Shown: positions 5,243 through 37,804 of the stretch, piece after piece | Layout: each line of letters begins with the position of its first letter | How positions within the stretch are numbered: the first letter of the stretch is position 1 | NCBI GenBank assembly: GCA_028713125.1 | Contig: JAQTOU010000001.1 | Location: 266,273 to 330,272 of the forward strand | DNA length: 64,000 nucleotides | DNA from: Elusimicrobiales bacterium | GTDB taxonomy: Bacteria; Elusimicrobiota; Elusimicrobia; Elusimicrobiales; UBA9959 | Reading direction: 5' to 3' | Program-made: the position numbers and the translations under genes | Notes under the pieces: model-generated | Told to the model about the DNA's origin: nothing | Databases searched by the model: none | Seen by the model: the letters and a program-made list of their open reading frames with translations, nothing else

Positions 5243-7279
5243 TTATCGGGGCCCGGCCTCGACAAAAAAGGCTTTAAGGGCCGCCAGGGTGCGTATGCGG
5301 GGGCAGCGGGGGATGGAGCGCAGGAACTTTGAGCCGTAGCGCTTGGTCTGTATCCGGGAATCCAGCACCACTACCGCTCCGAAGTCGGTCCTGCTGCGGA
5401 TAAGCCGGCCGAAGCCCTGGCGGAACTTGACCACGGCTTTCGGGAGGGAATAGTCGTTAAAGACGTTCATGCCCCGGGCCGTCATCCATTCCTGCCGGGC
5501 CTCTTCAAGAGGCGTGTCCGGAGAAGTAAAAGGCAGCCTTGCGATGACGACGCAGGCCAGGGCCTGCCCGGTGACGTCTATCCCCTGCCAGAAAGTGTCC
5601 GTGCCGAACAGGATGCCGTTGCCGGCGCGCTTGAAGTCGGCGATCAGGTGCTGCGGCAGTTTCTCCCCCTGTTTGAACAGCGGGCGGCCCGGCAGCTTAT
5701 CCTGCAGCGCCTTGTAGGTCCGCTCGAGCAGCTGCCAGCTGGTGAAGAGAAAGAACATTCCCCCCTCCACGGCTGAAGGCAGCTTCAGGCATTCTTTGAC
5801 CACCGCCGCTTCGTAAGCCGCGCCGTCCTGCGGGTCGGGGATTTCCGGCGGCAGGAAAAAGACGGCCTGGTTCTCATAGTCGAAAGGCGAATCGAGCAGG
5901 AGCTCGGAGGGGTCGTCCAGCCCCAGCCTGGCTTTGGTCATCGCAAAAGAGCCATCCGCCGCCAGCGTGGCTGAAGTGAGGACTACCGGGTAGCCTTCAT
6001 TAAAAAGCTCCTTCCGCAGAGCGTCGGACACATCGACGGGGGCCCGGTGCAGCGATGCCGCGGGATTTTTCTTCGAATAGGAGACCTCCGCCCAATAGGC
6101 GTGCTCGGCGCTTTTGCACTGCAGGAAAACGTTCACCTGCTCGGCCAGCGCCAGGCACCTCTTTAAATATCCTTTAACCTCCGCCTCTTCGAGGTCGGTC
6201 TGGGCGTAGCCGATGGCCTGCGACAGGAGCACGGTAAGGGCGAGCAGCGGCTCTGCGAGCGTATTGGGGACAAGGGCGGCCCCGCGCAGACGCTTGGTTT
6301 TCGCCGGGGCCTTCCCGTCGATGGTTCCAAAACCAAGCTTCTCCGTTATATCGTGGAAAAGATCCCTGGAAGCGAACTGCACGTCGCCCACGGCCTGGCG
6401 CATCTCGGCCAGCCAGTTGGCCGGCGGGTTCCTGAGCCTTCTTGCCAGCCCCCTGCCGGATTTGGGATTGTAAATATCGTCGATAAGGCGCTTGACCTGC
6501 CTGTCGCTCACGGAGAAGCCCAGGAAGGCGGCGGCGACCTCTTCCAAGTTATGCGCCTCGTCGAAAATTACCGCGTCGAAAGCCGGGAGGGGCAGCCCGG
6601 CGAAGAAAAGGTGCTGGTTAACTACCAGGATATCGGCCTGCCTGGCCAGCGAGATGTCCCGGCGGTAGAGGCAGGCTTCGCGGTGCGGGCACTTCCTGCC
6701 CAGACAGACGTCGGGGTCGCGGCAGACCTCCTCCCAGACCCGCTGAGGGACCTTGAGCGGGATCTCGGAGCGGCAGCCGCTGGCGGCGCCGCTCTTCGCC
6801 CATTCGCGCAGGTCCGCGGCGGAATCCTGCTCCTCGTCGCTGTCGAAAAGATCGCTTTGGTGCGCGCCGGACCGCCCCAGCCGCGAGAGGCACAGGTAAT
6901 TAGCCGACCCCATCAGGAGGAAATATTTAAGCGGCAGGCCCTGCTCGGCCAGCATGGCTTTGACCACGGGCAGGTCCTTTTTTACGAGCTGCTCCTGCAG
7001 GGCTTTCGTGTGCGTGGCGACGATGACTTTTTTCTTGTTGCGGGCGGCCCAAAGGGCAGAGGGCAGGAGGTAGGCGATGGACTTCCCCACCCCTGTACCG
7101 GCCTCCACTATAAGGTGCCTGTTTTCAGTGAGCGCTTTATAGACCCCGGCGGCCATTACGCCCTGCTGGCGGCGGGGCTCGAAATTCCTGACCGTCCGCT
7201 CTACGGGCCCGCCGGGCGCGAAAAAGAGGGCCGGCCCGGAGGCGTCGGCGATCGACTGGCTGTTTTCTTTTGCGGGCAT
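5243..7279 (-). CDS. dinG: ATP-dependent DNA helicase, DinG/YoaA (XPD-like) family
   Basis: A 678-residue superfamily 2 helicase. Walker A is at about 59-67 (EAGTGVGKS, K66), the DEAH box at 240-243 (FDEAH), motif V at GTDTFWQGID and motif VI at FRQGFGRLIRSRTD. Cysteines C130 (ANYLCLSR), C192, C197 and C203 follow the four-cysteine pattern that holds a 4Fe-4S cluster in DinG and XPD, with an extra C186 nearby. The family unwinds 5'-3' on forked DNA, R-loops and damage structures. There is no N-terminal exonuclease domain, so this is the DinG/YoaA type rather than the Gram-positive fusion. The start is 2 bases past the MBL-fold gene stop, so it is probably the last gene of the 8557-5243 unit. 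Confidence 0.92.
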   Translation of the reverse strand: MPAKENSQSIADASGPALFFAPGGPVERTVRNFEPRRQQGVMAAGVYKALTENRHLIVEAGTGVGKSIAYLLPSALWAARNKKKVIVATHTKALQEQLVKKDLPVVKAMLAEQGLPLKYFLLMGSANYLCLSRLGRSGAHQSDLFDSDEEQDSAADLREWAKSGAASGCRSEIPLKVPQRVWEEVCRDPDVCLGRKCPHREACLYRRDISLARQADILVVNQHLFFAGLPLPAFDAVIFDEAHNLEEVAAAFLGFSVSDRQVKRLIDDIYNPKSGRGLARRLRNPPANWLAEMRQAVGDVQFASRDLFHDITEKLGFGTIDGKAPAKTKRLRGAALVPNTLAEPLLALTVLLSQAIGYAQTDLEEAEVKGYLKRCLALAEQVNVFLQCKSAEHAYWAEVSYSKKNPAASLHRAPVDVSDALRKELFNEGYPVVLTSATLAADGSFAMTKARLGLDDPSELLLDSPFDYENQAVFFLPPEIPDPQDGAAYEAAVVKECLKLPSAVEGGMFFLFTSWQLLERTYKALQDKLPGRPLFKQGEKLPQHLIADFKRAGNGILFGTDTFWQGIDVTGQALACVVIARLPFTSPDTPLEEARQEWMTARGMNVFNDYSLPKAVVKFRQGFGRLIRSRTDFGAVVVLDSRIQTKRYGSKFLRSIPRCPRIRTLAALKAFFVEAGPR

Positions 7280-7281
7280 TA

Positions 7282-8058
7282 TTATTTTATCGTAAGCACC
7301 GCGCCGTGCTCATAGCGGGGCGAGACATGCGTCTTGAACTTTACAGGAGTGCTGTTTTTCTTAAAGAAAGACCTGATCTCTTTCTCAGGCAGGTCGGGCG
7401 CATTGCAGTCCTCGCTGAGGTGCCCAAGCACCACGGCCTGGGGCTGCCGCCGGCTGAGCGCGCAGATAGCGTGCAGGAACCTGGCGGTCTCTATATTCGG
7501 AAGGTGGAATTCCGAGCCGGGATGCCCATAGCGCTTTAAAAGCTCCGGGTCGTGGTTGGCCTCGAGGCAGAGCAGGCCGGAATCGGCCGCAAGCGCCGCC
7601 TGCTCTTCGGTGAAGCTGTGAAGGTCGGTAAAGACGGACGCTTTTTGTCCTGGCGCGCCGGTAATGATAAAGGCGGTAGTATAGCAGCGGGGAGAATGGG
7701 CTACCTGGACGAGGCGCACTTTCAGCTCACCGACCGGGATCTCCCCTTCGAACGGGTATATTATCCCGGCGTGGGCGCAGCCGTGCCTTTCTTTTATCTC
7801 CCGCGCTACGGAGGGATGGCACCGCACCTTGAACCCCTCCGCCTGGAGAACCTTGAGGGAATTGCGGTTGATGTGATCGCCGTGGGCGTGGGTGACCAGC
7901 ACGGTGTCCAGGGAGCCGCTGACCATCTTGAGGGCGCGCAGGGCTTCGCAGCAATCGCGCTGGCAGCCGGGCGCGAAATCGATAAGCACGGCGGCCCCGG
8001 CCGTCCACAGCAGGGCGGCGTTCCCGCCGCTGCCGGAACACAGGGATTTATATTTCAT
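7282..8058 (-). CDS. MBL-fold metallo-hydrolase, WalJ/YycJ-like
   Basis: A 258-residue metallo-beta-lactamase-fold enzyme beginning MKYKSLCSGSGGN, the usual YycJ/WalJ opening. The metal ligands are visible: THAHGDH (first motif), HSPRC, FTDLHS and LGHLSED. WalJ-type members are 5'-3' exonuclease or phosphodiesterase-like enzymes linked to DNA metabolism; the exact substrate here is not known. I chose the ATG at 8056-8058 because the conserved first strand begins there; it overlaps the end of the YgjP-like gene by 11 bases and has no strong ribosome site, which suggests translational coupling. The next gene is a DinG helicase, consistent with a DNA-metabolism role. Confidence 0.85.
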   Translation of the reverse strand: MKYKSLCSGSGGNAALLWTAGAAVLIDFAPGCQRDCCEALRALKMVSGSLDTVLVTHAHGDHINRNSLKVLQAEGFKVRCHPSVAREIKERHGCAHAGIIYPFEGEIPVGELKVRLVQVAHSPRCYTTAFIITGAPGQKASVFTDLHSFTEEQAALAADSGLLCLEANHDPELLKRYGHPGSEFHLPNIETARFLHAICALSRRQPQAVVLGHLSEDCNAPDLPEKEIRSFFKKNSTPVKFKTHVSPRYEHGAVLTIK

Positions 8059-8557
8059 CGCAGTTAACGGCTTGGGGGAAAAGAAGGCTCCCCCCTTTCC
8101 TGACCAAGGCGCTGTTGTCGCGCAGCCAGCGGCGGTGGACCTTATAATCGGGGCAGGCCGCCCGCACATGGTCCCAGAATCTTTTTGAGTGGTTCATCTC
8201 CCGGAGGTGGCAGAGCTCATGGATCACCACGTAATCGAGCGCCTCGAGCGGGGCGGCGGCCAGGCGCCAGTTAAAATTAAGGTTCTTCCTGGCGGAGCAG
8301 CTGCCCCAGAGGGTGCGCTGGTCCTTTACGAAGACCCGGCGATACTCCAGGTTCAGGAGTTGGGCCCAGTGCCTGACCCTGGCGAGTATCAGATCCTTGG
8401 CTTCCCTGCGGGCGGCGGTGTCAGCGCCTTTCGGCGGCGTGGCGCGGCGGACAAACCGCGGCCGGCAAACCCGCGGCGGCGGGAAAATATCCGGCAGTTC
8501 GCGCGCGAGCCCGTTAAGGAAAAGCCGCACGTCCTGACAGACGTCTTTTATAGACAT
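8048..8557 (-). CDS. YgjP/SprT-like (DUF45, M48-type) zinc metallopeptidase
   Basis: A 169-residue protein with the zincin motif VIHELCHLREMNHSKRFW: H-E-L-C-H supplies two zinc histidines and the catalytic glutamate, and the downstream NHSKRFW histidine is the third ligand. The upstream LWGSCSARKNLNFNWRL block is the DUF45 signature (WGSC...L.FN..L). The family is cytoplasmic and poorly characterised; it resembles WLM/SprT proteases. The ATG at 8555-8557 (MSIKDVCQDV) is used; a TTG further upstream (8615-8617) is possible but would add a hydrophobic leader. It overlaps the MBL-fold gene and is preceded by the terminator of the P-loop gene. Confidence 0.85.
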   Translation of the reverse strand: MSIKDVCQDVRLFLNGLARELPDIFPPPRVCRPRFVRRATPPKGADTAARREAKDLILARVRHWAQLLNLEYRRVFVKDQRTLWGSCSARKNLNFNWRLAAAPLEALDYVVIHELCHLREMNHSKRFWDHVRAACPDYKVHRRWLRDNSALVRKGGSLLFPQAVNCDEI

Positions 8558-27375: not shown

Positions 27376-27993
27376 TTATTTAAGGAGCCCTGTCAATCCC
27401 AATACCGCATACCAAAGCCCGGTTAGCAGCAGGGTCAGGCGGCCGATCTCATTAACGCGCCCCCCCAGCCAGGGGGTTCCGAGCAGTACAGGCGAGATGA
27501 ACAGTGAAGTCGCGCTGAAAAAGCCTCCGAAATAGACGAAACCCTTCGCTATATCGGCCATCTCCAGGAGGCGTATGAAGCCGGCGGCGAAAGGCGGGCA
27601 TATACTGATACCGGTCGCGAAACCGAGGGCCAGCGGCAGACGCTTGAAGAAAGGGTTCATGTCCTTATTGAGCAGGCAGTGTCCCGGCCCGCCTGAAACC
27701 CTGCCTGCCGCCAGGGCGACCATGATCAGGCCGCAGACCGCCATGGAGGCCGGAAGCAGCCAGGCCGGGAGGGAGTACTGCCCGGCTTTGCCGGCCAGGG
27801 AAGCCAGGAGCGCGAAGAGCATATAGGCGGCGAAGCGCCCGCCCAGGAATTGCATAAAAATATAGAAGTTGAATTTCCAGACGGCTTTCCCCTCCGCCAG
27901 GAGGTAAGGGGCCAGCAGGGGCAGGCAGGCGGAGAGGCAGTAGAAGCCGGTGGAAAGGCCCAGGAGGAAACCTTCCGAGAAGATAGCCGGCAC
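27376..27993 (-). CDS. UreH/DsbD-like six-helix membrane protein
   Basis: A 205-residue membrane protein with about six hydrophobic segments and the fold features of the UreH/TauE-like or DsbD transmembrane class: FYCLSACLPLLAPYLL in the first helix pair and GFATGISICPPFAAGF in the mirrored second half, each with a Cys-x-Pro or Cys-Leu-Pro site inside the membrane. Such proteins move reductant or metal/sulfur compounds across the inner membrane. It begins 1 base from the end of the zinc-ribbon gene and forms a trio with it and the ferredoxin-type membrane protein. Confidence 0.75.
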   Translation of the reverse strand: MPAIFSEGFLLGLSTGFYCLSACLPLLAPYLLAEGKAVWKFNFYIFMQFLGGRFAAYMLFALLASLAGKAGQYSLPAWLLPASMAVCGLIMVALAAGRVSGGPGHCLLNKDMNPFFKRLPLALGFATGISICPPFAAGFIRLLEMADIAKGFVYFGGFFSATSLFISPVLLGTPWLGGRVNEIGRLTLLLTGLWYAVLGLTGLLK

Positions 27994-27994
27994 T

Positions 27995-28189
27995 TTAAAT
28001 ATCTACGGCGCGGTTGCAGCGCTTGCACCACCCGGCGCTCCTGCCGGAATTATTCTTGCGGTTAAGCGAGACTGAGTCTTTGCAGCCGGGACATTTCACG
28101 TCCAGCCCTGACAGGTCCATCTTGGAGTAATCTTTTTCAAAGATCTCCTTGTTCGTATAGCGCGGGGCGAGCCATCTTCCTTCTTTCAT
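27995..28189 (-). CDS. 64-residue zinc-ribbon protein
   Basis: A very small cytoplasmic protein with two CxxC knuckles, C33/C36 (VKCPGCKD) and C55/C58 (WCKRCNR), 18 residues apart: a zinc ribbon. The N-terminus MKEGRWLAPRYTNKEIF is basic and lacks a signal. No named family recognised. It lies 10 bases after the NapH-like gene and 1 base before the UreH-like gene, so it belongs to that unit and may assist metal delivery or regulation. Confidence 0.7.
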   Translation of the reverse strand: MKEGRWLAPRYTNKEIFEKDYSKMDLSGLDVKCPGCKDSVSLNRKNNSGRSAGWCKRCNRAVDI

Positions 28190-28199
28190 AGTTCCTCCA

Positions 28200-29339
28200 T
28201 CAATGCGTACCGAATATCTTTACAAGGTCGCGCAGCGCGGCAGGGGCCCAGAGCGAAGAGAAGGCGGATCCCAGGAGCAGCGCCGAAAAAACAAAAATAT
28301 GCTCGGCCGAGACAAGGCGGCCCAGCGCGCCCTCTACAGCCGGCAGCTTCAGGCCGAAAGCCGTGTATGTATGGAGGCGGGCGGGGCAAGCCCCGAGGCA
28401 TTGGCCGCACAGATTGCAGTAGGGCAGGATCTCCGCTTTGCCACCCGGCGCGCAGCTTATGGCCAGCGTCGGGCAGACCGCTACGCATCTGCGGCAGCCG
28501 GTGCACTTCCCCTCTTCGATAGAGATCCGGAAAGGGTTAAGGCGGCCCCAGAAAGCCTGCCAGGCGGCGAAGGGGCACAGGAAGGAGCAGAAGATCCTTT
28601 TTTTAGTAAGCAGCGGGGCGAGGACCAGGGCGGCGAGGGCGAAGAACATCAGGGCGTATTGAAGCCCTCTCAGGTAGCCCTGCTGGTCGAGGAAACTTCC
28701 GGTAAGCTTGAAAGGGCAGAGCCAAAGGCAGTAAACGGGCAGCATCGTGGCCAGCGAAGCAAGCATCGCGAAGATCAGCAGCGCGGCAGGCAGGTCCCTG
28801 GCCTTAAGCGCCCAGCGGCCGGTTTTCAGGAGCGGTCGGCCTGGCAGCGCGCTTAGCCCGTCGTCTATGCCGCCGTAGAAGCAGGCCCAGGAGCACCAGC
28901 CGCGCCCCAGGCCAATGGTCACGAAGAGCCAGGCCGCGCCGAGCGTGATCGGGCCCCAGAGCTTCCAGCCCCCGCTCATCAGCGCGAGGTATTGCTGGTA
29001 AAGGTAGTTGAGGAAATAGGGCGCCATGGCGATATGGCAGAAAGGGGTGTCCTTAAAACAGGAAGGGTCGAAAGCTTTGCCGAAGAGGCTGAGCTTGAAG
29101 TGGAGCAAAAAAGCCAGCGCCGAAACGGAGAAAAATATCCTGCGGTAGAATGAAACCCTGCCGGTGTAGGAGATGGCATAAGCGGTGCCCGCCGCGAAGA
29201 AGGCCCAGGCCAGGCCGTAGAGGCGGCTTATCTCGCGGCCGGCTATCATGGTAGAAAAAAGCAGCGCCGGTATAAAAACCAGGGCGGCGAAGACGCCGGC
29301 GGCGGCCGCTTTCTTCCGCGCTGAAGGATTTGGTCCCAT
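28200..29339 (-). CDS. NapH/CcoG-like membrane ferredoxin (two 4Fe-4S sites)
   Basis: A 379-residue inner-membrane protein with about seven helices and redox motifs. Two membrane-edge pairs, GWCSWACFYGG and FCSFLCPFAAWQ, are the CxxxC and CxxxCP motifs of the NapH/NosR/CcoG group. A ferredoxin domain near residue 280-330 has CTGCRRCVAVCP and CNLCGQCLGACP, enough for two 4Fe-4S clusters. The family passes electrons between quinone or ferredoxin pools and periplasmic reductases or copper/heme maturation. The ATG is near -10-like sequence of the divergent 29359 gene. It leads the trio with the zinc-ribbon and UreH-like genes. Confidence 0.85.
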   Translation of the reverse strand: MGPNPSARKKAAAAGVFAALVFIPALLFSTMIAGREISRLYGLAWAFFAAGTAYAISYTGRVSFYRRIFFSVSALAFLLHFKLSLFGKAFDPSCFKDTPFCHIAMAPYFLNYLYQQYLALMSGGWKLWGPITLGAAWLFVTIGLGRGWCSWACFYGGIDDGLSALPGRPLLKTGRWALKARDLPAALLIFAMLASLATMLPVYCLWLCPFKLTGSFLDQQGYLRGLQYALMFFALAALVLAPLLTKKRIFCSFLCPFAAWQAFWGRLNPFRISIEEGKCTGCRRCVAVCPTLAISCAPGGKAEILPYCNLCGQCLGACPARLHTYTAFGLKLPAVEGALGRLVSAEHIFVFSALLLGSAFSSLWAPAALRDLVKIFGTH

Positions 29340-29358
29340 TTAGTACAATAATATCAAA

Positions 29359-31434
29359 ATGGGGATGTTCCTGTTATTCGGATTTTATTCTCTGCTTGTC
29401 CAGGCGCTGCTGCTCAGGGAAATAGCGCAGGTCTTCACGGCGCATGAGCTCTCCCTGGCCGCGGCCCTTGCCTGCTGGCTTTTGTGGACCGCCGCCGGCG
29501 TGCGCCTTGGAGCCAGGGCCGCCGGCCCCGGGGTTTTCCTCCGGGGCTGCCTTATTTTTTCTGTGGCCGCGCCTTTGAATTTGCTCCTTGCGCGGACGGC
29601 CCCGGCCCTGCTTCCCGGCATGTCACAGCCTGGACTTTTCACAATACTTGCGGGCTCCGCCCTTCTCTGCCTGCCGGCCGGCCTGGCCAACGGCTATGCC
29701 GCCGGCGCCGCCCTGCGCGGCGCCCCGGCTTTTTTTTACGCGGCCGAAGCCGCAGGCGCGGCGGCCGCCGGGCTTTTCACTCTTTTGTATTACCGGAGCT
29801 TCCCCTCACTCGAGGCGGCGGCGGTCCTGGCCGTACCTGGCCTGGCCCTTTGCACGGCTTTCGCGTTTAGTCCCTTTTCATACCGGCGGCTCGCGGCGGG
29901 ACTGGCCGCCGCGGTCGCGCTGGGCGCCGCAAACTTCGCGGCGCCCCGAAGCTGGACGCTGAAACCGCCCGCGCCCAGCCCGGAGCTCGTTATCCAGACC
30001 GAAAGCGGGCGCCTGGCCTTAACCGGGCGGGAGGGTCTTTCTTATTACGAGGACGGGCGCCTTCTTTACGCTCCGGAGGAAACAGCTCCGGAGGAACTGG
30101 TGCATCCGGCCCTGCTGGCCCTGAAGAAGCCTGGAAAAATCCTGCTGCACGGCGGAGGTGCCTTCTTCGCCCTCCCCGAGGTCCTGAAACATAAGCCGGC
30201 GGCCGTCGAGATCGCGGAGCCGGACCGGTTCAAAGCGGAAGCCCTGGCGGAGCTTACCCGGGCGGACGCCGGAACTTTCGCTCTGCTTCACGCCGATCCG
30301 CGCGTGCTGAATGACAGGGAAGGCTATTACAACGCTATACTCCAGGCGGGCGTCTCTCCGGAGAACGCCGCCCAGAACAGGTTCTTCACGCTGGAGTATT
30401 TCAGGACGGCCGCCGCGATGCTGAAGCCCGGAGGGGTCCTGGTTTTCCAGCTCCCTTTCGCCGAGAATTATGTCCCCCCGCCCGCGGCTTACGCCGCGGC
30501 CTGCGTGCTTGCTTCGGCCCGCGCGGTCTTCCCCCGCCTGGAGCTGATCCCCGGCGCCAGGCTCACGGTTCTGGCCTCCGCCGGACCGCTGGACCTCGAC
30601 CCCGCGTCCCTGGCCGCCGCCTACACAAAGCGCGGGCTCAAAACTAAAACAGTAGTTCCGTCCGCCTTCACTTTCCTGCTTGATCCCTACAGGCGCGCCT
30701 GGGCCGCGGGCGAAATCGAAAAGGTCAGGCGCCCGCCGCTAAACACCGACCTGAATCCGCTGGCCTATTTCAGGTTCTGGCGGGCCTGGCTTTCTATGGT
30801 CATGTCGCCCGCCTCCCTCCTGGGCCTTGCCGGGCTGTCGGCGGCCGGGCTCTTCGCGGCTTGGCGGCTGAAAAGCGCGCTTAAATTTATCCCTGAAGAG
30901 CGCACCGGTGAAGCTTTTTTTATTGGATTCTGGGGCCTGGCCTTCGAGACGTCGGTCCTCCTGGCTTTCCAGGCGAAGACCGGCAGGCTGAGCCCGGAGT
31001 TGGGCGCGATGTTCGCCCTGTTCATGGCCGGCGCCGCCTGCGGCGCCTGGGCCGCTAAGAACAGCCCGCCTAAATTCATACTCCTGTTCGAGGCGGCGGC
31101 CGCGGCGCTTGCGCTGTTCTGCGCTTTGCGCCCCGAGCTGGCGCAGGGCGCCGGCTCGGCCAGAACACTGATCCTTTGCGGCGGGCTCCTGTCGGGGGCA
31201 TTTTTTGCGGCGGCGGCTTTAAAGACCGCGGGAGAGGTTTACGCCTGGGACCTGGTCGGCGGGGCCGCCGGCGGGCTGGCTACCGCGGCTTTCGCGGCAC
31301 CTATGGCCGGGATAGCGGGAGCGCTGTATTTAGCCGGCCTGGCCGCGCTTGCGGCGCTGGGCGGAGGGTTGGTGGTCCGGAAGAGGGAATTTCGACGGGC
31401 TTATTCCTTGAAAGAGTCCACGGTGAAAGAGTAG
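29359..31434 (+). CDS. Polytopic protein with a degenerate spermidine-synthase-like domain
   Basis: A 691-residue membrane protein. The N-terminal half has about six helices, starting LLFGFYSLLVQALLLREIAQVF, the hallmark of membrane spermidine-synthase-like proteins. A central soluble domain (about 215-425) shows the Rossmann spermidine synthase layout (LVHPALLAL, KPGKILLHGGGAFF, AAVEIAEPDRF, AQNRFFTLEYF), and more helices follow. The glycine loop lacks the usual Asp-Gly after GGG and the Asp that activates the amine substrate is not obvious, so aminopropyl transfer is doubtful. The last 34 bases overlap the convergent AmmeMemoRadiSam gene. A TACAAT box 9 bases before the ATG and no Shine-Dalgarno suggest a leaderless message. 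Confidence 0.8.
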   Translation: MGMFLLFGFYSLLVQALLLREIAQVFTAHELSLAAALACWLLWTAAGVRLGARAAGPGVFLRGCLIFSVAAPLNLLLARTAPALLPGMSQPGLFTILAGSALLCLPAGLANGYAAGAALRGAPAFFYAAEAAGAAAAGLFTLLYYRSFPSLEAAAVLAVPGLALCTAFAFSPFSYRRLAAGLAAAVALGAANFAAPRSWTLKPPAPSPELVIQTESGRLALTGREGLSYYEDGRLLYAPEETAPEELVHPALLALKKPGKILLHGGGAFFALPEVLKHKPAAVEIAEPDRFKAEALAELTRADAGTFALLHADPRVLNDREGYYNAILQAGVSPENAAQNRFFTLEYFRTAAAMLKPGGVLVFQLPFAENYVPPPAAYAAACVLASARAVFPRLELIPGARLTVLASAGPLDLDPASLAAAYTKRGLKTKTVVPSAFTFLLDPYRRAWAAGEIEKVRRPPLNTDLNPLAYFRFWRAWLSMVMSPASLLGLAGLSAAGLFAAWRLKSALKFIPEERTGEAFFIGFWGLAFETSVLLAFQAKTGRLSPELGAMFALFMAGAACGAWAAKNSPPKFILLFEAAAAALALFCALRPELAQGAGSARTLILCGGLLSGAFFAAAALKTAGEVYAWDLVGGAAGGLATAAFAAPMAGIAGALYLAGLAALAALGGGLVVRKREFRRAYSLKESTVKE

Positions 31435-32858
31435 ATCCGCGTCTTCTGGTCTTTCCAGCAATCGCGGGGCAGCCCCGCTTTCTGTTCGCACAATTCCCCC
31501 ATAAAATCCTCCTTGCCGGGGATCTGTTCCCAGACCTGCGGAAGGAAGAGGCCGGATTTCCCGTCCTTTACAACGACGGCGCCGTGCAAGCCCGGCTTTA
31601 TTTCCTCTGCGGCCGCTGGCTTCAATGGCGAAAGCACCGAGACTTCGAACTTAATTTCGGGGAGTTCATCTTTCTTCAGCGGCTGGAACCGCCCGTCGCG
31701 GAAAGCGGCGCTGAAAGCTCCATAGCGCACCGCGTCCATCAGCGTCATGGCCGGCTCGACGGTTCCGACGCAGCCTCTTAATTGTCCGCCCTTTGTAAGC
31801 GTCACGAAAACCGCCCCCGGGAGGTTGAACCTCGGGTCGGCCTCCATGCCGCCCGGAAGTTCCTTCCCCGCGAAATGTTTTTCCAGGGTAAGCCGGGCCT
31901 CTTTGAGCAGCAGCCCGCCCTGGTCCTTTGAAAGCTTAAGGTCCGAAGGCTTACCCGACTTTAGAAAAAGCCCGGAGATATAGCCGACCACCCGGCCGGG
32001 CCCGGGGCGCGGACTTTCGGAGGAGGAGTCGGAGACCTTCAGGGTCTGAAAAGAACGGGCGCCAAGCAAGTGCGCGGCCTCCATGCCGGCCTCTAAAGCG
32101 GCTTCGCCGCAGGCGCAGGTGTCCAGGCCGGGTATTTTTTTCCTTAACAGGAAAAAAGAAGTTTCCCGGACGAGCTCCGGGGCCATGCTTTCAATAGCCA
32201 GGCGCATCGCGCCGTCGGCGGCGGCCGCGTCGGCTTTGCCGGGGTAATGGGAAAAATCCGTGGAGATCACGATCAGGACTTTTTTGCCTTTGACCGCGGT
32301 GGCCAGCGCGGCGCCTATTGTTTTCAGTGATTTGAGATCTTCGGTGTTCAGAACGGCCGCAAGGAGCTTGAAAGGCTTTTTCAGCTTGCGCTGCAGGAAA
32401 GGCAGCTGCACTTCCACGGCGTGCTCGCGAGCGTGGGCGGAAGGCCTGTCCTCGAAGAGCGGGCTGGCTTTCATCAGGGCCGCGGCCAGCTCGCGGTCCG
32501 GCAGGACCTTCCCCAGCGGCGTCCGGTAGAAATCGGAGGCGAGCAAAGCCGCGCCCCTGACGCTTTCCGTATGCCCCGTAGCCAGGATGATGACCGTGTC
32601 ATAGCTGTCTGAAAGAAAGCTATAGGCCTGGCCGGCCATCTTCCCCGAGAACTCATACCCGGCGTGCGGCGCCAGCACGGCGACTATTTCCCCTCCCGGC
32701 TTCTTTTCTTTGCCCGGCACGAGGCTGGCGTCTACGAAAGCTGAAAGTCCGGCTTTATCGGCCGGGTAGAACTGGCCTGCCACCGCCATTTCCCGGGCAT
32801 GGACGGCCTGGACCAAGGCCAGGCAAAGTACGCACAGCGCGGTTAAGTTATGTGTCAC
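31401..32858 (-). CDS. Exported AmmeMemoRadiSam B-A fusion (Memo-like + AMMECR1-like)
   Basis: A 485-residue fusion. The GTG at 32856-32858 overlaps the radical SAM stop (GTGA) and opens a signal peptide, MTHNLTALCVLCLALVQAVHA. Residues about 22-290 are the Memo-like (protein B) domain with VAGQFYPAD, LAPHAGYEFSGK, ATGHTE, ISTDFSHYP and DTCACGEAAL, giving the His/Asp/Cys site of that family. Residues about 310-485 are the AMMECR1-like (protein A) domain with PGAVFVTLTKGGQLRGCVGT and the YGAFSAAFRDGRFQPL block. The A and B proteins are usually separate and cytoplasmic; fusion and a signal peptide are both notable. With the adjacent radical SAM enzyme this completes the AmmeMemoRadiSam set, whose substrate is unknown. 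Confidence 0.9.
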   Translation of the reverse strand: MTHNLTALCVLCLALVQAVHAREMAVAGQFYPADKAGLSAFVDASLVPGKEKKPGGEIVAVLAPHAGYEFSGKMAGQAYSFLSDSYDTVIILATGHTESVRGAALLASDFYRTPLGKVLPDRELAAALMKASPLFEDRPSAHAREHAVEVQLPFLQRKLKKPFKLLAAVLNTEDLKSLKTIGAALATAVKGKKVLIVISTDFSHYPGKADAAAADGAMRLAIESMAPELVRETSFFLLRKKIPGLDTCACGEAALEAGMEAAHLLGARSFQTLKVSDSSSESPRPGPGRVVGYISGLFLKSGKPSDLKLSKDQGGLLLKEARLTLEKHFAGKELPGGMEADPRFNLPGAVFVTLTKGGQLRGCVGTVEPAMTLMDAVRYGAFSAAFRDGRFQPLKKDELPEIKFEVSVLSPLKPAAAEEIKPGLHGAVVVKDGKSGLFLPQVWEQIPGKEDFMGELCEQKAGLPRDCWKDQKTRIYSFTVDSFKE

Positions 32859-34084
32859 CAGATCCCCGGTATTTTCGTTCCGTCCCAGGGGCAGCGGCCC
32901 TTGGTATAAGTAAGGTGGTCTTCCAGCACGGCGAAACCGTAGCGGCGTATCAGGACTTTCCCGCACTTGGGACAATACGTGTTTTCTCCCGCGCTTCCGG
33001 GCACGTTCCCGGCGTAGACGAATTTAAGGCCGTTCTTCATGGCTATGGCCCTGGCTTTTTCGAGCGTCGAGACCGGCGTGGGCGGGATGTCGGTTATAAG
33101 GTAATTAGGTGTGAAACGTGAAAAAAAAAGCGGCGTCTCGGCCCCGAGGTTCTCCCTGACCCAGGAGGAGAGGGCCGACAGGTCGGACTCCGAATCGTTC
33201 AGGCCGGGAACCACAAGATTAACAACCTCGGTCAGGACGCCTTTTTTTTTTAATTCAATAAGGGTGCGCTTTACCGGTTCGAGGCTGCCGCCCGTATAAT
33301 CCCGGTAGAATTTTTCATTGAAGCCCTTGAGGTCTATCTTTACCACGTCCATCAGCGGCAGCAATTCCGCCAGCGGCTCCGGGTTTATGTAGCCGGCGCT
33401 CACCATCACGTTCTTAAGGCCGGCCTTCCTGGCCAGGCAGGCGGTATCGTACATGTATTCGTAAAAAATGGAAGGTTCGGAATAGGTGTAAGCTACCGCC
33501 TTCGAGCGGGTAGCCAGGGCGTATTTTACGATGTCCTCCGGCGGCAGGTCCGAGGCTTCTGTCGTGCGGAGCTCGCCGTAAACCCGGCCGGCTGGAAGCC
33601 TCTTTACTTCCAGGCCCGAAGGCACGGGCAGGGTGCGGGGCGCCTGCTCGGGATACATCTGGGAGATCTCCCAGTTCTGGCAGCCTTTGCAGGAGAGGTT
33701 GCAGCCCGGCGCCGCCACGGAGTAGATCAGGCTGCCCGGGTACATATGGTAGACCGGCTTCTTCTCGATCGGGTCCACGTGCACGGCGGCGGCCTGGGAA
33801 TAGATAAGAGTTTTCACCTTGCCGCCGTAGTTGACCCGCACTTTGCAGATGCCGCGGGCGCCCTCCGGCAGGAAGCAGTCGTAAGGACAAAGCCTGCACT
33901 GCACGCCGTTGCAGACGGGCCGGGTGAAGCGGCCGTCCCGGATATGCGGGCTTTGCGGAGGATAAAGAGTCGCGAAGGTGGAGGGCGGAGGATAAAAAGC
34001 TAAAAGGGCGGCTGCCGCGGCGGCCAGCGCGACGGCCGAAGCCGTCCACAAGATCGCCGCGGCAGCCCGCCCTTTAGGGCTCAT
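32855..34084 (-). CDS. AmmeMemoRadiSam-type radical SAM enzyme with an N-terminal membrane helix
   Basis: A 409-residue radical SAM protein. C128, C132 and C135 in GCNLSCKGCQNW form the 4Fe-4S CxxxCxxC site; an upstream cysteine group at 58-70 (CNGVQCRLCPYDC) and a C-terminal zinc-ribbon-like YCPKCGKVL are typical of the AmrS family. The SAM-binding beta strands are present (YTYSEPSIFYEYMY, VSAGYINPEPL, VVKIDLKGF). Unusually, residues about 10-30 form a hydrophobic helix preceded by Lys/Arg, predicting a membrane anchor or uncleaved signal. Start overlaps the LOG stop by one base (TAATG). It heads the radical SAM-B-A pair. Confidence 0.92.
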   Translation of the reverse strand: MSPKGRAAAAILWTASAVALAAAAAALLAFYPPPSTFATLYPPQSPHIRDGRFTRPVCNGVQCRLCPYDCFLPEGARGICKVRVNYGGKVKTLIYSQAAAVHVDPIEKKPVYHMYPGSLIYSVAAPGCNLSCKGCQNWEISQMYPEQAPRTLPVPSGLEVKRLPAGRVYGELRTTEASDLPPEDIVKYALATRSKAVAYTYSEPSIFYEYMYDTACLARKAGLKNVMVSAGYINPEPLAELLPLMDVVKIDLKGFNEKFYRDYTGGSLEPVKRTLIELKKKGVLTEVVNLVVPGLNDSESDLSALSSWVRENLGAETPLFFSRFTPNYLITDIPPTPVSTLEKARAIAMKNGLKFVYAGNVPGSAGENTYCPKCGKVLIRRYGFAVLEDHLTYTKGRCPWDGTKIPGIW

Positions 34085-34944
34085 TATTTATGGTTCCCGT
34101 TTAGCGGGTTCTTCTTATAGAACTCCGCTATCTGGTCGACTATCTGCCGGCCGGTCTCGGCGAAGGTGAAGAGCTTCAGGTCTTCCGTGGAGATATAACC
34201 CCACTTGGCCATGTTCTGGAAGTTCATCACGTCCGTCCAGTAGTCCTCGCCGACGAGGATTATGGGCAGGCGGCTCTTCTTGCCGGTCTGGACCAGCGTC
34301 ATCACTTCGAACATCTCGTCCATGGTGCCGAAGCCGCCGGGGAACACTACCAGCGCGCGCGCCCGCATGACGAAGTGCATCTTGCGGATGGCGAAATAGT
34401 GGAAGCGGAAGCAGAACTCGGGGGAGACATAGGGATTGGGCCCCTGCTCCATCTCGAGCGTGATATTGAGACCGATGCTCTTTTCGCCGGCCTCGTGCGC
34501 GCCGCGGTTGGCCGCCTCCATGATGCCCGGCCCGCCGCCGGTTACCACGACCAGCTTGCGGTCCTTGATCTGGGTCTTGGAGATCAGCTTGCCGAAGTCG
34601 CGGGCCACTTCGTAATACCTGGCGGAGGCCTCCAGTCTTTTCGCCGAGCCCAGCTTGTTCTTTATCACGGAATCCTTGGGATTCTTCTTCAGGAGGGCGC
34701 CCATCTCGGCCACGCGGGCGGAGGACTGCTTCTTGTCCAGGATGCGGGCGCTGCCGAAACACACCACGGTGGATTTAACTCCGTACTCGGCCAGCGTCAT
34801 CTCGGGCTTGAGCAGCTCGAGCTGCAGGCGCACGGGGCGCAGTTCATCACAGGTGAGGAATTCGGGATCCAGGTACGCTTTCCGGTACGCCTTGGACCTG
34901 CGCAGCGCTAAAACCTCTTTGCTGATCTTGGGTTGTTTTTTCAC
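34084..34944 (-). CDS. LOG-family (lysine decarboxylase-like) phosphoribohydrolase
   Basis: A 286-residue Rossmann protein of the TIGR00730/LOG family. GGGPGIMEAANRGAHEAG and PGGFGTMDEMFEVM are the two family signatures; the second carries the PGGxGTxxE nucleotide site. LOG enzymes remove ribose 5-phosphate from nucleotide monophosphates (cytokinin type or AMP). The start is a GTG (34942-34944) with AAGGAG about 9 bases before it. It forms a unit with the radical SAM and B-A fusion genes and follows a TATACT box on the minus strand (34971-34976). Confidence 0.9.
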   Translation of the reverse strand: MKKQPKISKEVLALRRSKAYRKAYLDPEFLTCDELRPVRLQLELLKPEMTLAEYGVKSTVVCFGSARILDKKQSSARVAEMGALLKKNPKDSVIKNKLGSAKRLEASARYYEVARDFGKLISKTQIKDRKLVVVTGGGPGIMEAANRGAHEAGEKSIGLNITLEMEQGPNPYVSPEFCFRFHYFAIRKMHFVMRARALVVFPGGFGTMDEMFEVMTLVQTGKKSRLPIILVGEDYWTDVMNFQNMAKWGYISTEDLKLFTFAETGRQIVDQIAEFYKKNPLNGNHK

Positions 34945-34970
34945 GATAGTGCTCCTTGATTTGCCTAACC

Positions 34971-34976
34971 AGTATA
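34971..34976 (-). promoter_or_regulatory. -10 box of the LOG-AmmeMemoRadiSam unit
   Basis: TATACT on the minus strand, about 26 bases before the GTG start, in the short gap after the dxs stop. The -35 falls inside dxs and is not consensus. Confidence 0.4.
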
Positions 34977-34983
34977 CAAAACC

Positions 34984-36870
34984 TTAAATCGATTTTGACT
35001 GCGCGAGCCTCGCCAGCCAGTCCGCCGCCGAGGCGGCCATCTTTTCGGGGGTAAGCCCGACCTCGGAATAAAGCTCCTCGGGCCTCCCCTGCTCAACATA
35101 GGAGTCGGGGATGCCGAGGCGCAATATCCTGGCGTCCGCCCCGGAATAATTCAGGTATTCCAAGACGGCGGAGCCGAAACCGCCGGCCAGGGAATTGTCC
35201 TCGACGGTAATGACCGGGCCCGCCTTCGCCAGCGCTTCGATCAGCTCCGTATCCAGAGGCTTCACGAAACGCATGTCGGCCACGCCGGCGTCTATGCCGA
35301 GGCCCTTGAGCAGCTGGGCGGCTTTTACCGCCGGGTGCACGCGGTTGCCTATGGCCAGGAAATTAACGTCCCTGCCGCGGGAAAGCAGGCGGCCTTTGCC
35401 CAGCGGGAGCGCAAGGGGCCCGGGATCCATGGGAACGCCGAAACCTCTCCCCCGCGGGTAGCGGACCAGCGCCGGCAGGCCGCAGGCGAAAGCGGTGGCG
35501 AGCATATGCTGCAGCTCGTTCTCGTCGGCGGGGGCCATCACCGTAACGTCCGGGATCATGCGGAAAAGGGAAATATCGAAGACTCCGTGGTGGGTCGGGC
35601 CGTCCTCGCCGACGAGGCCGGCGCGGTCCATGGCGATGACCACCGGCAGTTTCTGCAGGGAGACGTCGTGCTGGACCTGGTCGAAAGAGCGCTGCATGAA
35701 AGAGGAATAGACCGCTACGACCGGCTTCATGCCTTCGGCGGCCAGGCCGGCCGCGAAGGTGACGGCGTGCTCCTCGGCTATCCCGACGTCGTAGTAGCGC
35801 CCGGGAAAAGCGTCCCGGAAAAGGTCCAGGCCGGTCCCCTCGGGCATCGCGGCGGTTATGGCGCAGATCCGCGCGTCTTTTTTCGCCAGCTCTACGAGCG
35901 TCCTGCCGAACACGGCGGTGAAGGTGGGCGGCATTTTCCCGGACTGCGCGCCGGCGCTGGGCTCGCCGGTCTCTATGTCGAACTTAGGCGTGCCGTGGAA
36001 CTGGACAGGCGAGTCTTCGGCCGGCTCGTAGCCGCGGCCCTTGGTGGTTACCACGTGCAGCAGGACCGGCCCCTTCACGTCCTTGATATACCCCATCACG
36101 TCCACGAGCTCCCGCAGATTATGACCGTCGACGGGCCCGAAGTAGGAGAAACCCATCTCTTCGAAAACCATGCCCGGGAAGAAAAGCACGCGCGCGCGCT
36201 TGATGATCCTGCGTATCCTTCTGCCCCAGTGCGGGAACCGGCCGAGAAAGATCTCCGTTCTTCTCACCGTTCTCTGCACCGAACCCATGGTGAGCATTTT
36301 GGTCAGGATATGGCCGAGGCGGCCCACCCGCTCGGAGATGAACATCTGGTTGTCGTTGAGGACCACGAGCAGGTCCGTGCCCAGGTGCCCGACGTTCTGC
36401 ATGGCCTCCCAGGACATTCCGCCGGTCATGGCGCCGTCCGCCACTACGGCGACTACCCGGTGATGGGCGCCGGCCTGGTCGCGCGCGGCCGCCATGCCGG
36501 CCGCCGCTGAAAGCGCGGTGGAGGCGTGGCCCGCCCCGAAGGCGTCGTATTCAGACTCGTAGCGCTTCAGGAAGCCGGACAGCCCCCCGTGCGTGCGGAT
36601 GGTGTGGAACTTGTCGGCGCGGCCGGTAAGGATCTTGTGCGCGTAAGCCTGGTGGCCGGTGTCGAAGACGATGCGGTCGCGCGGGGTGTCGAAAACATAG
36701 TGGAGCGCGAGTATCAGGTCGGTGGCGCCCAGGCTGGAGGCCAGATGCCCCCCCGTCCTGCTTATCCCGTCGACCAGAAGCTTCCGTACTTCCGCGGCCA
36801 GCGCGGGGAGTTCGCCGATGGCGAGCTTCTTTACGTCTTCCGAACCTTTGATCTTTGAAAGCAGTCCCAT
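34984..36870 (-). CDS. dxs: 1-deoxy-D-xylulose-5-phosphate synthase
   Basis: A 628-residue thiamine-diphosphate enzyme joining pyruvate and glyceraldehyde 3-phosphate, the first step of the MEP isoprenoid pathway. Landmarks: FDTGHQAYAHKILTGR, VADGAMTGGMSWEAMQN (ThDP site), and the transketolase-like second half with FAAGLAAEGMKPVVAVYSSFMQRSFDQVQHDV, RAGLVGEDGPTHHGVFD and VEDNSLAGGFGSAV. It starts 1 base from the stop of the polyprenyl synthase gene, so both isoprenoid genes are one unit. Confidence 0.96.
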   Translation of the reverse strand: MGLLSKIKGSEDVKKLAIGELPALAAEVRKLLVDGISRTGGHLASSLGATDLILALHYVFDTPRDRIVFDTGHQAYAHKILTGRADKFHTIRTHGGLSGFLKRYESEYDAFGAGHASTALSAAAGMAAARDQAGAHHRVVAVVADGAMTGGMSWEAMQNVGHLGTDLLVVLNDNQMFISERVGRLGHILTKMLTMGSVQRTVRRTEIFLGRFPHWGRRIRRIIKRARVLFFPGMVFEEMGFSYFGPVDGHNLRELVDVMGYIKDVKGPVLLHVVTTKGRGYEPAEDSPVQFHGTPKFDIETGEPSAGAQSGKMPPTFTAVFGRTLVELAKKDARICAITAAMPEGTGLDLFRDAFPGRYYDVGIAEEHAVTFAAGLAAEGMKPVVAVYSSFMQRSFDQVQHDVSLQKLPVVIAMDRAGLVGEDGPTHHGVFDISLFRMIPDVTVMAPADENELQHMLATAFACGLPALVRYPRGRGFGVPMDPGPLALPLGKGRLLSRGRDVNFLAIGNRVHPAVKAAQLLKGLGIDAGVADMRFVKPLDTELIEALAKAGPVITVEDNSLAGGFGSAVLEYLNYSGADARILRLGIPDSYVEQGRPEELYSEVGLTPEKMAASAADWLARLAQSKSI

Positions 36871-36871
36871 G

Positions 36872-37804
36872 TCAGTTTTCCCGCCCGTAGATGAACCGGG
36901 AGATCCCCGCCAAGGCTTCTTTGGCGGGCGGCGCCCCGCTCACGCTGTCCAGGCTGGAGAGGGCCTTGTTCAGGAGGATCTCGGCGGTGCGCCGCGCCTT
37001 GTCGACGCCCAGGAGGGACACGTAGGTAAGCTTGTTATTGCGGGCGTCGCTGCCGCTCTTGCCCAGTTTTTTCTTGTCGCCCTCCACGTCCAGGATGTCG
37101 TCCGCGATCTGGAAGCAGAGACCGATATCCCGGCCGAATGCCGAGAGGGTATTGAAATCCTTTTTAGGCGCCCAGGCCAGGGCCGCGCCCATCTCTACGG
37201 CGGCGGTGATCAGGTCGGCGGTCTTATGAAGGTGTATGTAGGAAAGCAGGGAGAGCCCGGCTTTTGTCCGCGCCGGGGAAACCTTGCCCTTCCCGCGAAG
37301 GAAACTCGCGGCTTCGAGGTCGGCGGCCTGGCCCGAAGCCATGCCGCAGGCGCCGGCTCTCCTGGACAGGATCGCCGCCGCTGAAAGCAGGGCTTCCGCC
37401 TCGGGCTGGCGCGGGTATTTGGAGGAAAGCAGGACGGTAAAAGCGTCGGTGAGCAGCGCGTCTCCGGAGAGGATGGCCAGCGCTTCGCCGTAAACCTTGT
37501 GGCTCGTGGGCCGGCCGCGGCGCAGGTCGTCGTTATCCATGGCCGGCAGGTCATCATGGACGAGAGAATAGGTATGGACCATCTCCAGCGCGCAGGCCGC
37601 CGGAAGGATATCGGATGCCTTGCCGCCAAAGATCTCGTAGGCCGCCCCCATCAGGGCGGGCCGCAGCCGCTTGCCGCCCGCGGACAGGGAATAAAGCATT
37701 GCTTCGGAAAGGCGGGGCTGTGAATTTTTAAGGCGGGAGACGAAGACCGGCAGGGCTTTGTTTACGGCGGCGGCCCTCTCGGTCATGTATCTTTCGATAT
37801 CCAT
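36872..37804 (-). CDS. ispA: Polyprenyl diphosphate synthase (farnesyl/geranylgeranyl type)
   Basis: A 310-residue trans-prenyltransferase extending C5 units to FPP or GGPP. The first aspartate-rich motif is VHDDLPAMDNDDLRRGRP (DDxxxxD form), the second CFQIADDILD. Residues upstream of the first motif (EMVHTYSLV) include Tyr, compatible with FPP or GGPP product length, which I cannot fix. The gene leads dxs by 1 base. Its start codon is 8 bases after a TATAAT box, with no Shine-Dalgarno. Three 11-bp repeats at 22-bp spacing lie just upstream. Confidence 0.9.
   Translation of the reverse strand: MDIERYMTERAAAVNKALPVFVSRLKNSQPRLSEAMLYSLSAGGKRLRPALMGAAYEIFGGKASDILPAACALEMVHTYSLVHDDLPAMDNDDLRRGRPTSHKVYGEALAILSGDALLTDAFTVLLSSKYPRQPEAEALLSAAAILSRRAGACGMASGQAADLEAASFLRGKGKVSPARTKAGLSLLSYIHLHKTADLITAAVEMGAALAWAPKKDFNTLSAFGRDIGLCFQIADDILDVEGDKKKLGKSGSDARNNKLTYVSLLGVDKARRTAEILLNKALSSLDSVSGAPPAKEALAGISRFIYGREN

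Follow-up and report, generated by a model that had tools for sequence, protein, structure and literature searches.

An AmmeMemoRadiSam system of the Elusimicrobiota that probably faces outward, with candidate membrane partners for its electron supply

Radical S-adenosylmethionine (SAM) chemistry is assigned to the cytoplasm, since that is where SAM and low-potential electrons are found. A 64,000-nucleotide stretch of an Elusimicrobiales genome (assembly GCA_028713125.1, contig JAQTOU010000001.1, positions 266,273 to 330,272; here called the window) raises the question of whether one such enzyme works on the other side of the membrane. The window carries a complete AmmeMemoRadiSam set, in which TIGR04337 (the radical SAM enzyme), TIGR04336 (Memo) and TIGR04335 (AMMECR1) are all matched above their cut-offs in adjacent genes; to our knowledge, the human MEMO and AMMECR1 relatives have no agreed molecular function. 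A preliminary description of this DNA left two options, either an enzyme that faces inward and feeds an exported Memo-AMMECR1 protein or a whole set that works outside. We favor the second and propose that this is probably an outward-facing system that receives electrons, and perhaps SAM, across the membrane.

The set lies in a five-gene unit at 27376-34084. On the minus strand, a LOG-like gene is followed by the radical SAM gene and the fusion gene; a gene for a major facilitator superfamily protein with a spermidine synthase-like domain (MFS-SpeE) faces them from the plus strand, and NapH-like and DsbD_2-like genes are again on the minus strand. The features of the unit are as follows.

32855..34084, minus strand: radical SAM enzyme of the AmmeMemoRadiSam type, 409 residues, membrane-anchored and predicted to face outward (TIGR04337, 334.7 bits against a cut-off of 220; motifs kept).
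33992..34057, minus strand: N-terminal hydrophobic helix of this enzyme, about residues 10-31, a predicted uncleaved anchor (no signal peptidase-like site; end AFY-PPP).
31401..32858, minus strand: Memo-AMMECR1 fusion, 485 residues, with a GTG start that overlaps the stop of the radical SAM gene (TIGR04336 and TIGR04335; AlphaFold2 model).
32796..32858, minus strand: signal peptide of the fusion, residues 1-21, with a weakly charged n-region (from its sequence and the signal peptides of relatives).
31968..32795, minus strand: Memo domain, residues 22-297 (TIGR04336, 202.6 bits, cut-off 26; metal-ligand equivalents invariant).
31410..31910, minus strand: AMMECR1 domain with the LRGC core, residues 317-483 (TIGR04335, 170.8 bits, cut-off 99).
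29359..31434, plus strand: 14-helix MFS-fold protein with an inserted spermidine synthase-like domain, convergent with the fusion gene (PF01564, 26.6 bits; AlphaFold2 pLDDT 93.2; MFS and SpeE matches).
29950..30807, plus strand: spermidine synthase-like domain of this protein, residues 198-483, predicted to be extracytoplasmic (asymmetry of Lys plus Arg in 52/52 rows).
28200..29339, minus strand: NapH-like polytopic 4Fe-4S protein (profile searches; within 9 kb in 19/24 rows of the long class described below).
27376..27993, minus strand: DsbD_2/CcdA-like transmembrane thiol-electron relay (PF13386, 40.9 bits, cut-off 24.9).

The radical SAM gene runs from an ATG at 34084, which shares one base with the stop of the LOG-like gene upstream, to a stop at 32855-32857. 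Its product begins MSPKGR, continues as a hydrophobic helix to about residue 31 and then reads PPPSTF; because no signal peptidase-like site follows, the helix is read as an anchor. The start is mildly positive and the helix is predicted to lie N-in/C-out; a simple reading of charge and motifs thus finds the features of a general secretory (Sec) signal anchor, namely, a helix, a positive n-region and no cleavage site. Export by the twin-arginine translocation (Tat) route was rejected for this protein, since its N-terminus, MSPKGRAAAAILW, has no twin-arginine motif (no RR); the Tat type occurs in relatives only. The enzyme retains the CxxxCxxC motif (C128, C132 and C135, invariant in our radical SAM alignment, A1), TYSEP and the N-terminal Cys motifs. 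Its C-terminal Cys motif (CPWDG) has lost one Cys.

The window enzyme belongs to a long class that is marked by an insert, about 28 residues long, that follows the CxxxCxxC loop (A1 columns about 160-188, near profile position 100). Besides the window protein, 23 of the 24 long-class rows of the phylum were labelled signalled although the sequence of the helix varies, so the signal is more than chance; in the single exception (L039), it is missing from both the radical SAM enzyme and the fusion. Among 23 scorable rows, 17 had an n-region more positive than the 20 residues that follow the helix, 2 had a less positive one and 4 were tied, which bears out the positive-inside pattern noted in the preliminary description. 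By its predicted topology, the enzyme is likely to lie outside the cytoplasm. The same genome keeps a second TIGR04337 enzyme (L035:7680-8702, minus strand, 296.7 bits), which is unsignalled and can be regarded as an inside counterpart of the putatively exported form; no Memo gene was found in the 17-kb locus around it.

The fusion was read from the GTG at 32858, in preference to the TTG at 32975 given in the list of open reading frames (ORFs), and the resulting GTGA overlap with the stop of the radical SAM gene points to coupled translation. Its signal peptide shows a well-formed hydrophobic core and ends in V-x-A; the n-region is without Lys or Arg, one or the other of which most relatives have there. 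The fused, signal-bearing protein that had been described stands at 31401-32858, with both domains above cut-off, and its AlphaFold2 model (pLDDT, 96.6; pTM, 0.93) matches the MEMO1 and AMMECR1 structures. H45, H76 and C230 of the Memo domain (numbered in the trimmed window sequence) are invariant in 50/50 aligned rows and are equivalent to the MEMO1 metal ligands, as judged by motif position and shared fold and not by superposition. In the AMMECR1 domain, whose fold was matched, the L, R, C and G of the core LRGC[VI]G are invariant in 50 aligned rows. Memo and AMMECR1 formed a single protein in 66 of the 71 loci that had a Memo gene nearby.

How far these export signals extend was addressed in two samples. 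A TIGR04337 search of the phylum of the window genome matched 114 of 247 genomes (82 above cut-off), and a scan of named genomes, from which the best 80 of 587 loci were taken, included the Elusimicrobia loci L162, L169, L176 and L201. Together, these gave 212 unique ORFs, and 210 after the ambiguous L221 and L222 were removed; ORFs that were broken or did not have the searched Cys and PIEK motifs (e.g., L047, L062, L125, L128 and L141) were not entered. Signals were present on 116 of the 210 proteins (45 Tat and 71 Sec-type, with a signal peptide or transmembrane segment [SP/TM]), a wider occurrence than the preliminary description held. The remaining 94, including the second copy of the window genome, were unsignalled and serve as a natural control within the family. 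Tat cores such as RRDFLK and RREFIK were found in Aminicenantes, Acidobacteria, Planctomycetes, Scalindua, Latescibacterota, Caldithrix, Deltaproteobacteria, Omnitrophota and two archaeal metagenome-assembled genomes (L225 and L232, the latter matched by TIGR01409), and TatC was present in 15/16 genomes tested and also in the window genome. The signal is therefore shared by many other phyla. The preliminary description had noticed neither this spread nor the neighboring partner genes and the unsignalled second copy. The second sample came from the phylum of the Aminicenantes genome G254, in which 99 of 149 genomes had matches above cut-off. It comprised 70 loci (the 30 best, with flanks of only about 1.5 kb, and 40 spread down the list); 65 were scored (the 30 best and 35/40 of the spread, with 5 skipped), and 19 were signalled, all of the Tat type (L296 and L308 by eye). 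At one locus, two copies of the enzyme stand in tandem, and only one of them has a signal peptide (L146:6056-7162 and 7113-8246).

It could be argued that the start sites have been misread and that the true proteins are cytosolic, since the n-region of the window fusion has no Lys or Arg and homologues offer several possible starts. However, a helix, Tat motif or signal peptide recurs, correctly placed, across phyla, and no such segment occurs in the unsignalled rows; we find this explanation hardly credible.

The partners appear to be exported together. Wherever a Memo protein near a signalled radical SAM enzyme could be scored, it was itself signalled (56/56); signal states agreed in 64 of 68 scored pairs, and a signalled enzyme was never paired with an unsignalled Memo. 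Furthermore, a CxxCH motif lies between the Tat signal and the enzyme in 7/116 signalled proteins (L157, L182, L190, L197, L203, L220 and L229) and in 0/94 unsignalled proteins. The second sample adds three more (L307, L310 and L313), and all ten are behind Tat signals; the motif is not in the window enzyme. Since c-type heme is joined to its protein on the outer side of this membrane in general, beyond the cytoplasm, CxxCH would, if heme is bound, be separate support for export. Heme attachment machinery was represented by CcsB above cut-off in 3/7 of the genomes and by weaker matches in 7/7.

The preliminary description was right to be concerned that SAM and low-potential electrons are scarce outside the cytoplasm; the neighboring genes seemingly provide an answer. 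In the MFS-SpeE protein, the spermidine synthase-like domain is inserted between helices 7 and 8 of 14 (counting the last long helix of the model as two). The membrane part has the MFS fold, matching SLC37A4 (Z 25.8 over 319 residues) and also NorA, SotB and NarK, as fold matches only. Lys plus Arg averaged 17.8 on the N-terminal side and 3.5 on the side of the domain, an asymmetry found in 52/52 rows and, on average, in both halves. Because positive charge is on the N-terminal side and MFS proteins are usually oriented N-in, the domain is predicted to lie outside. E287 (kept in 44/52 rows) and D313 (50/52) presumably match by position the adenosine-binding acids of spermidine synthases. The Asp of aminopropyl transfer (position 330) is present in 7/52 rows and is Ala in the window protein; with this catalytic residue lost, a true spermidine synthase was rejected.

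MFS-SpeE genes were found within 6 kb of 63/116 signalled but only 6/94 unsignalled enzymes (Fisher P = 1.5e-14, with rows that are not independent). The difference was similar in loci with both flanks of at least 5 kb (44/66 versus 4/59) and in the second sample (11/19 versus 0/46). Within family f1, SpeE-like sequences at E <= 1e-100 were present in 24/24 genomes with a long-class enzyme (two in pieces) and in 0/10 genomes with only an unsignalled copy or no enzyme; two genomes with another signalled class (G030 and G175) have a more distant MFS-SpeE. At two other loci, the radical SAM protein beside MFS-SpeE was rejected as a family member: that of L257 is MoaA, and that of L258 belongs to another group (22 bits to TIGR04337). 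The latter protein (L258:2830-3822, minus strand) resembles pyruvate formate-lyase activases, and its genome also encodes a signalled AmmeMemoRadiSam enzyme.

The other neighbors may plausibly supply the electrons. A DsbD_2-like gene occurred in 18/21 loci that had the NapH-like gene, and its CxxxC motif is kept in 55/55 rows and a later Cys in 54/55. DsbD_2-like genes lay within 8 kb of 42/116 signalled versus 1/94 unsignalled enzymes, and they divided by signal type: 42/71 SP/TM and 0/45 Tat, compared with 0/71 and 7/45 for CxxCH. The second sample, in which signalled members are of the Tat type, likewise gave no DsbD_2-like gene. On one reading, a Sec-exported, unfolded enzyme would have to have its cysteines reduced and its clusters assembled after export, and for this reason the split is sensible; Tat would send the enzyme folded, with clusters in place. 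Three loci have DsbD_2, FMN_bind and Fer4_5 domains in single ORFs beside signalled enzymes (L156:5907-7832, L161:1735-3432 and L165:5576-7249), each possibly a one-protein electron conduit across the membrane. NosR-like genes with FMN_bind and Fer4_5 also occur directly beside four unsignalled enzymes (L159:6200-8056, L176:419-2026, L198:6374-7729 and L204:6404-7795).

These redox associations, the CxxCH motifs and DsbD_2 links alike, could also be expected of an exported protein that no longer performs radical chemistry and is kept for its Cys clusters as a metal- or redox-binding periplasmic protein, for which an external SAM supply would not have to be explained. The catalytic motifs argue otherwise: CxxxCxxC is kept in 113/116 and the TYxEP type in 115/116 signalled proteins, close to the unsignalled set (94/94 for both). 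We regard a nonradical role as decidedly improbable.

Several points weigh against an outward-facing system. We know of no SAM that is available outside the cytoplasm. The query alignment used for the named-genome scan was rich in exported forms, and that sample is biased; in the named set alone, the MFS-SpeE difference was weak (30/63 versus 4/15, P = 0.16). Export signals were called with a simple rule based on hydrophobicity and motifs, supplemented by visual reading. L061, L244 and L212 were changed to signalled by eye; L041, L044, L049, L142, L143, L170 and L243 were relabelled from Tat to SP/TM; and Memo signals were scored as present by eye in L037, L042, L045, L054, L171, L186, L187, L206, L216, L218 and L226, with L153, L196 and L200 excluded. 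The rule flagged 4/46 control ORFs (Dxs, 4/22; LOG, 0/24). On a tree of 209 rows, the signal state changed only about six times, so that the associations rest on few, nonindependent events; tests of independent pairs had two to three usable pairs, in which MFS-SpeE leaned the opposite way (same, 0.5; opposite, 1.4) and the Memo signal leaned the expected way (1.4 versus 0). MFS-SpeE was missing from the 6 kb around 53/116 signalled enzymes, some of them at contig ends. It is not exclusive to the system, since family f12 (L252-L256 and L268) has MFS-SpeE with no TIGR04337-type gene nearby, which also broke a phylogenetic profile over the whole phylum. The unsignalled enzymes of L159, L176, L198 and L204 adjoin both MFS-SpeE and an FMN_bind/Fer4_5 gene; these could be variants that act in the cytoplasm, or they could be exported by a different route. 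Finally, the four discordant pairs (L096, L100, L206 and L226) combine a signalled Memo with an unsignalled radical SAM enzyme, although the L096 and L100 genomes also encode a signalled one.

The discordant loci would suit an enzyme that is anchored but oriented toward the cytoplasm, with its SAM and ferredoxin, and that modifies the Memo-AMMECR1 protein before its export. The charge bias of the long class is also modest, with its 4 ties and 2 reversals in 23 rows. On the other hand, most signalled homologues outside the long class carry Tat or cleavable Sec signals that would release the enzyme outside, CxxCH sits behind Tat signals, and the SpeE-like domain is predicted to face outward. Together with the signals on every scorable Memo partner, this evidence led us to favor the set that works outside over the inward-facing enzyme, which we consider unlikely.

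Given the few changes on the tree and the lack of power of the pair tests, the associations could also reflect shared descent, with MFS-SpeE, NapH-like and DsbD_2-like genes being unrelated envelope genes that happen to share the region. Family-local synteny of this kind is suggested by the LOG-like, dxs and polyprenyl synthase genes upstream. However, MFS-SpeE and DsbD_2-like genes recur beside signalled enzymes of other phyla in varied orders and on varied strands, MFS-SpeE recurs in the second sample, and DsbD_2 divides by signal type. An explanation by neighborhood alone is, in our judgment, quite improbable.

The upstream genes lie at 34084-37804 and are kept in 18-19 of the 24 long-class rows. 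They were near 0/106 other loci of the phylum and 2/80 named loci, one of which is again from the Elusimicrobiota. As such neighbors hardly occur outside the long class, a link to isoprenoids or cytokinins was not made part of the system and is a lead only.

How, then, might an outward-facing enzyme operate? We envision that its N-terminal helix would tether it to the outside of the cytoplasmic membrane, where it would act either on the exported Memo-AMMECR1 protein or jointly with it. Electrons would come from inside through two neighboring proteins, the thiol relay of the DsbD_2 type and the Fe-S protein of the NapH type. The outer SpeE-fold domain would bind SAM or a breakdown product (5'-deoxyadenosine or methionine), with the MFS part as the transporter; this handling of SAM, and any choice of substrate, are guesses. 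More generally, and tentatively, members of the family may work outside with supply lines of their own, MFS proteins with an external SAM-fold domain providing for the adenosyl cofactor and relays of the DsbD, FMN or Fe-S type, or an attached c-type heme in Tat forms, providing for electrons. It is a doubtful guess that the radical SAM enzyme activates or modifies Memo-AMMECR1, which would then act on an envelope compound through the Memo metal site.

The locus resembles known AmmeMemoRadiSam systems in that its three components exceed curated cut-offs and keep their motifs; it differs in that Memo and AMMECR1 are fused and signalled, the radical SAM enzyme is anchored and membrane partners adjoin. 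The MFS-SpeE protein has the MFS and spermidine synthase folds of the membrane-fused spermidine synthase-like (MFS/SpeE) family, but it has lost the Asp and its domain is predicted to lie outside. The electron carriers share the Pfam domains FMN_bind, Fer4_5 and DsbD_2 with NosR/NapH and DsbD/CcdA proteins; unlike these, they stand beside a putatively exported radical SAM enzyme, and at three loci all three domains are in one protein. Pyruvate formate-lyase activating enzyme and other glycyl-radical activases are cytoplasmic. They are the sole solved relatives of the radical SAM enzyme found by sequence (8fo0 and 3c8f), and the window protein falls far short of the curated cut-offs for these activases.

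The main earlier study of Memo gene neighborhoods, a survey by Burroughs et al. in 2019 (J Biol Chem), may mention some of these neighbors. The Memo domain shares with human MEMO1 its fold (7l5c and 7kq8) and the residues that match H49, H81 and C244, which PMC11081632 reports as ligands for iron and copper; it differs in being fused to AMMECR1 and predicted to be exported. Full-text literature searches, including the accessible parts of PMC10924467, PMC11081632, PMC7159879, PMC12724379 and PMC9062700, returned no exported AmmeMemoRadiSam system or periplasmic radical SAM enzyme. Within that literature, the exported form and its partners appear to be unreported.

If our reading is correct, a large exported branch that spans many phyla and archaea would move AmmeMemoRadiSam chemistry to the cell surface and would limit the substrate to molecules that are exported or belong to the envelope. 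It would also raise a testable question, namely, the route by which SAM leaves the cell, and it would provide a cleaner entry point to what MEMO and AMMECR1 do.

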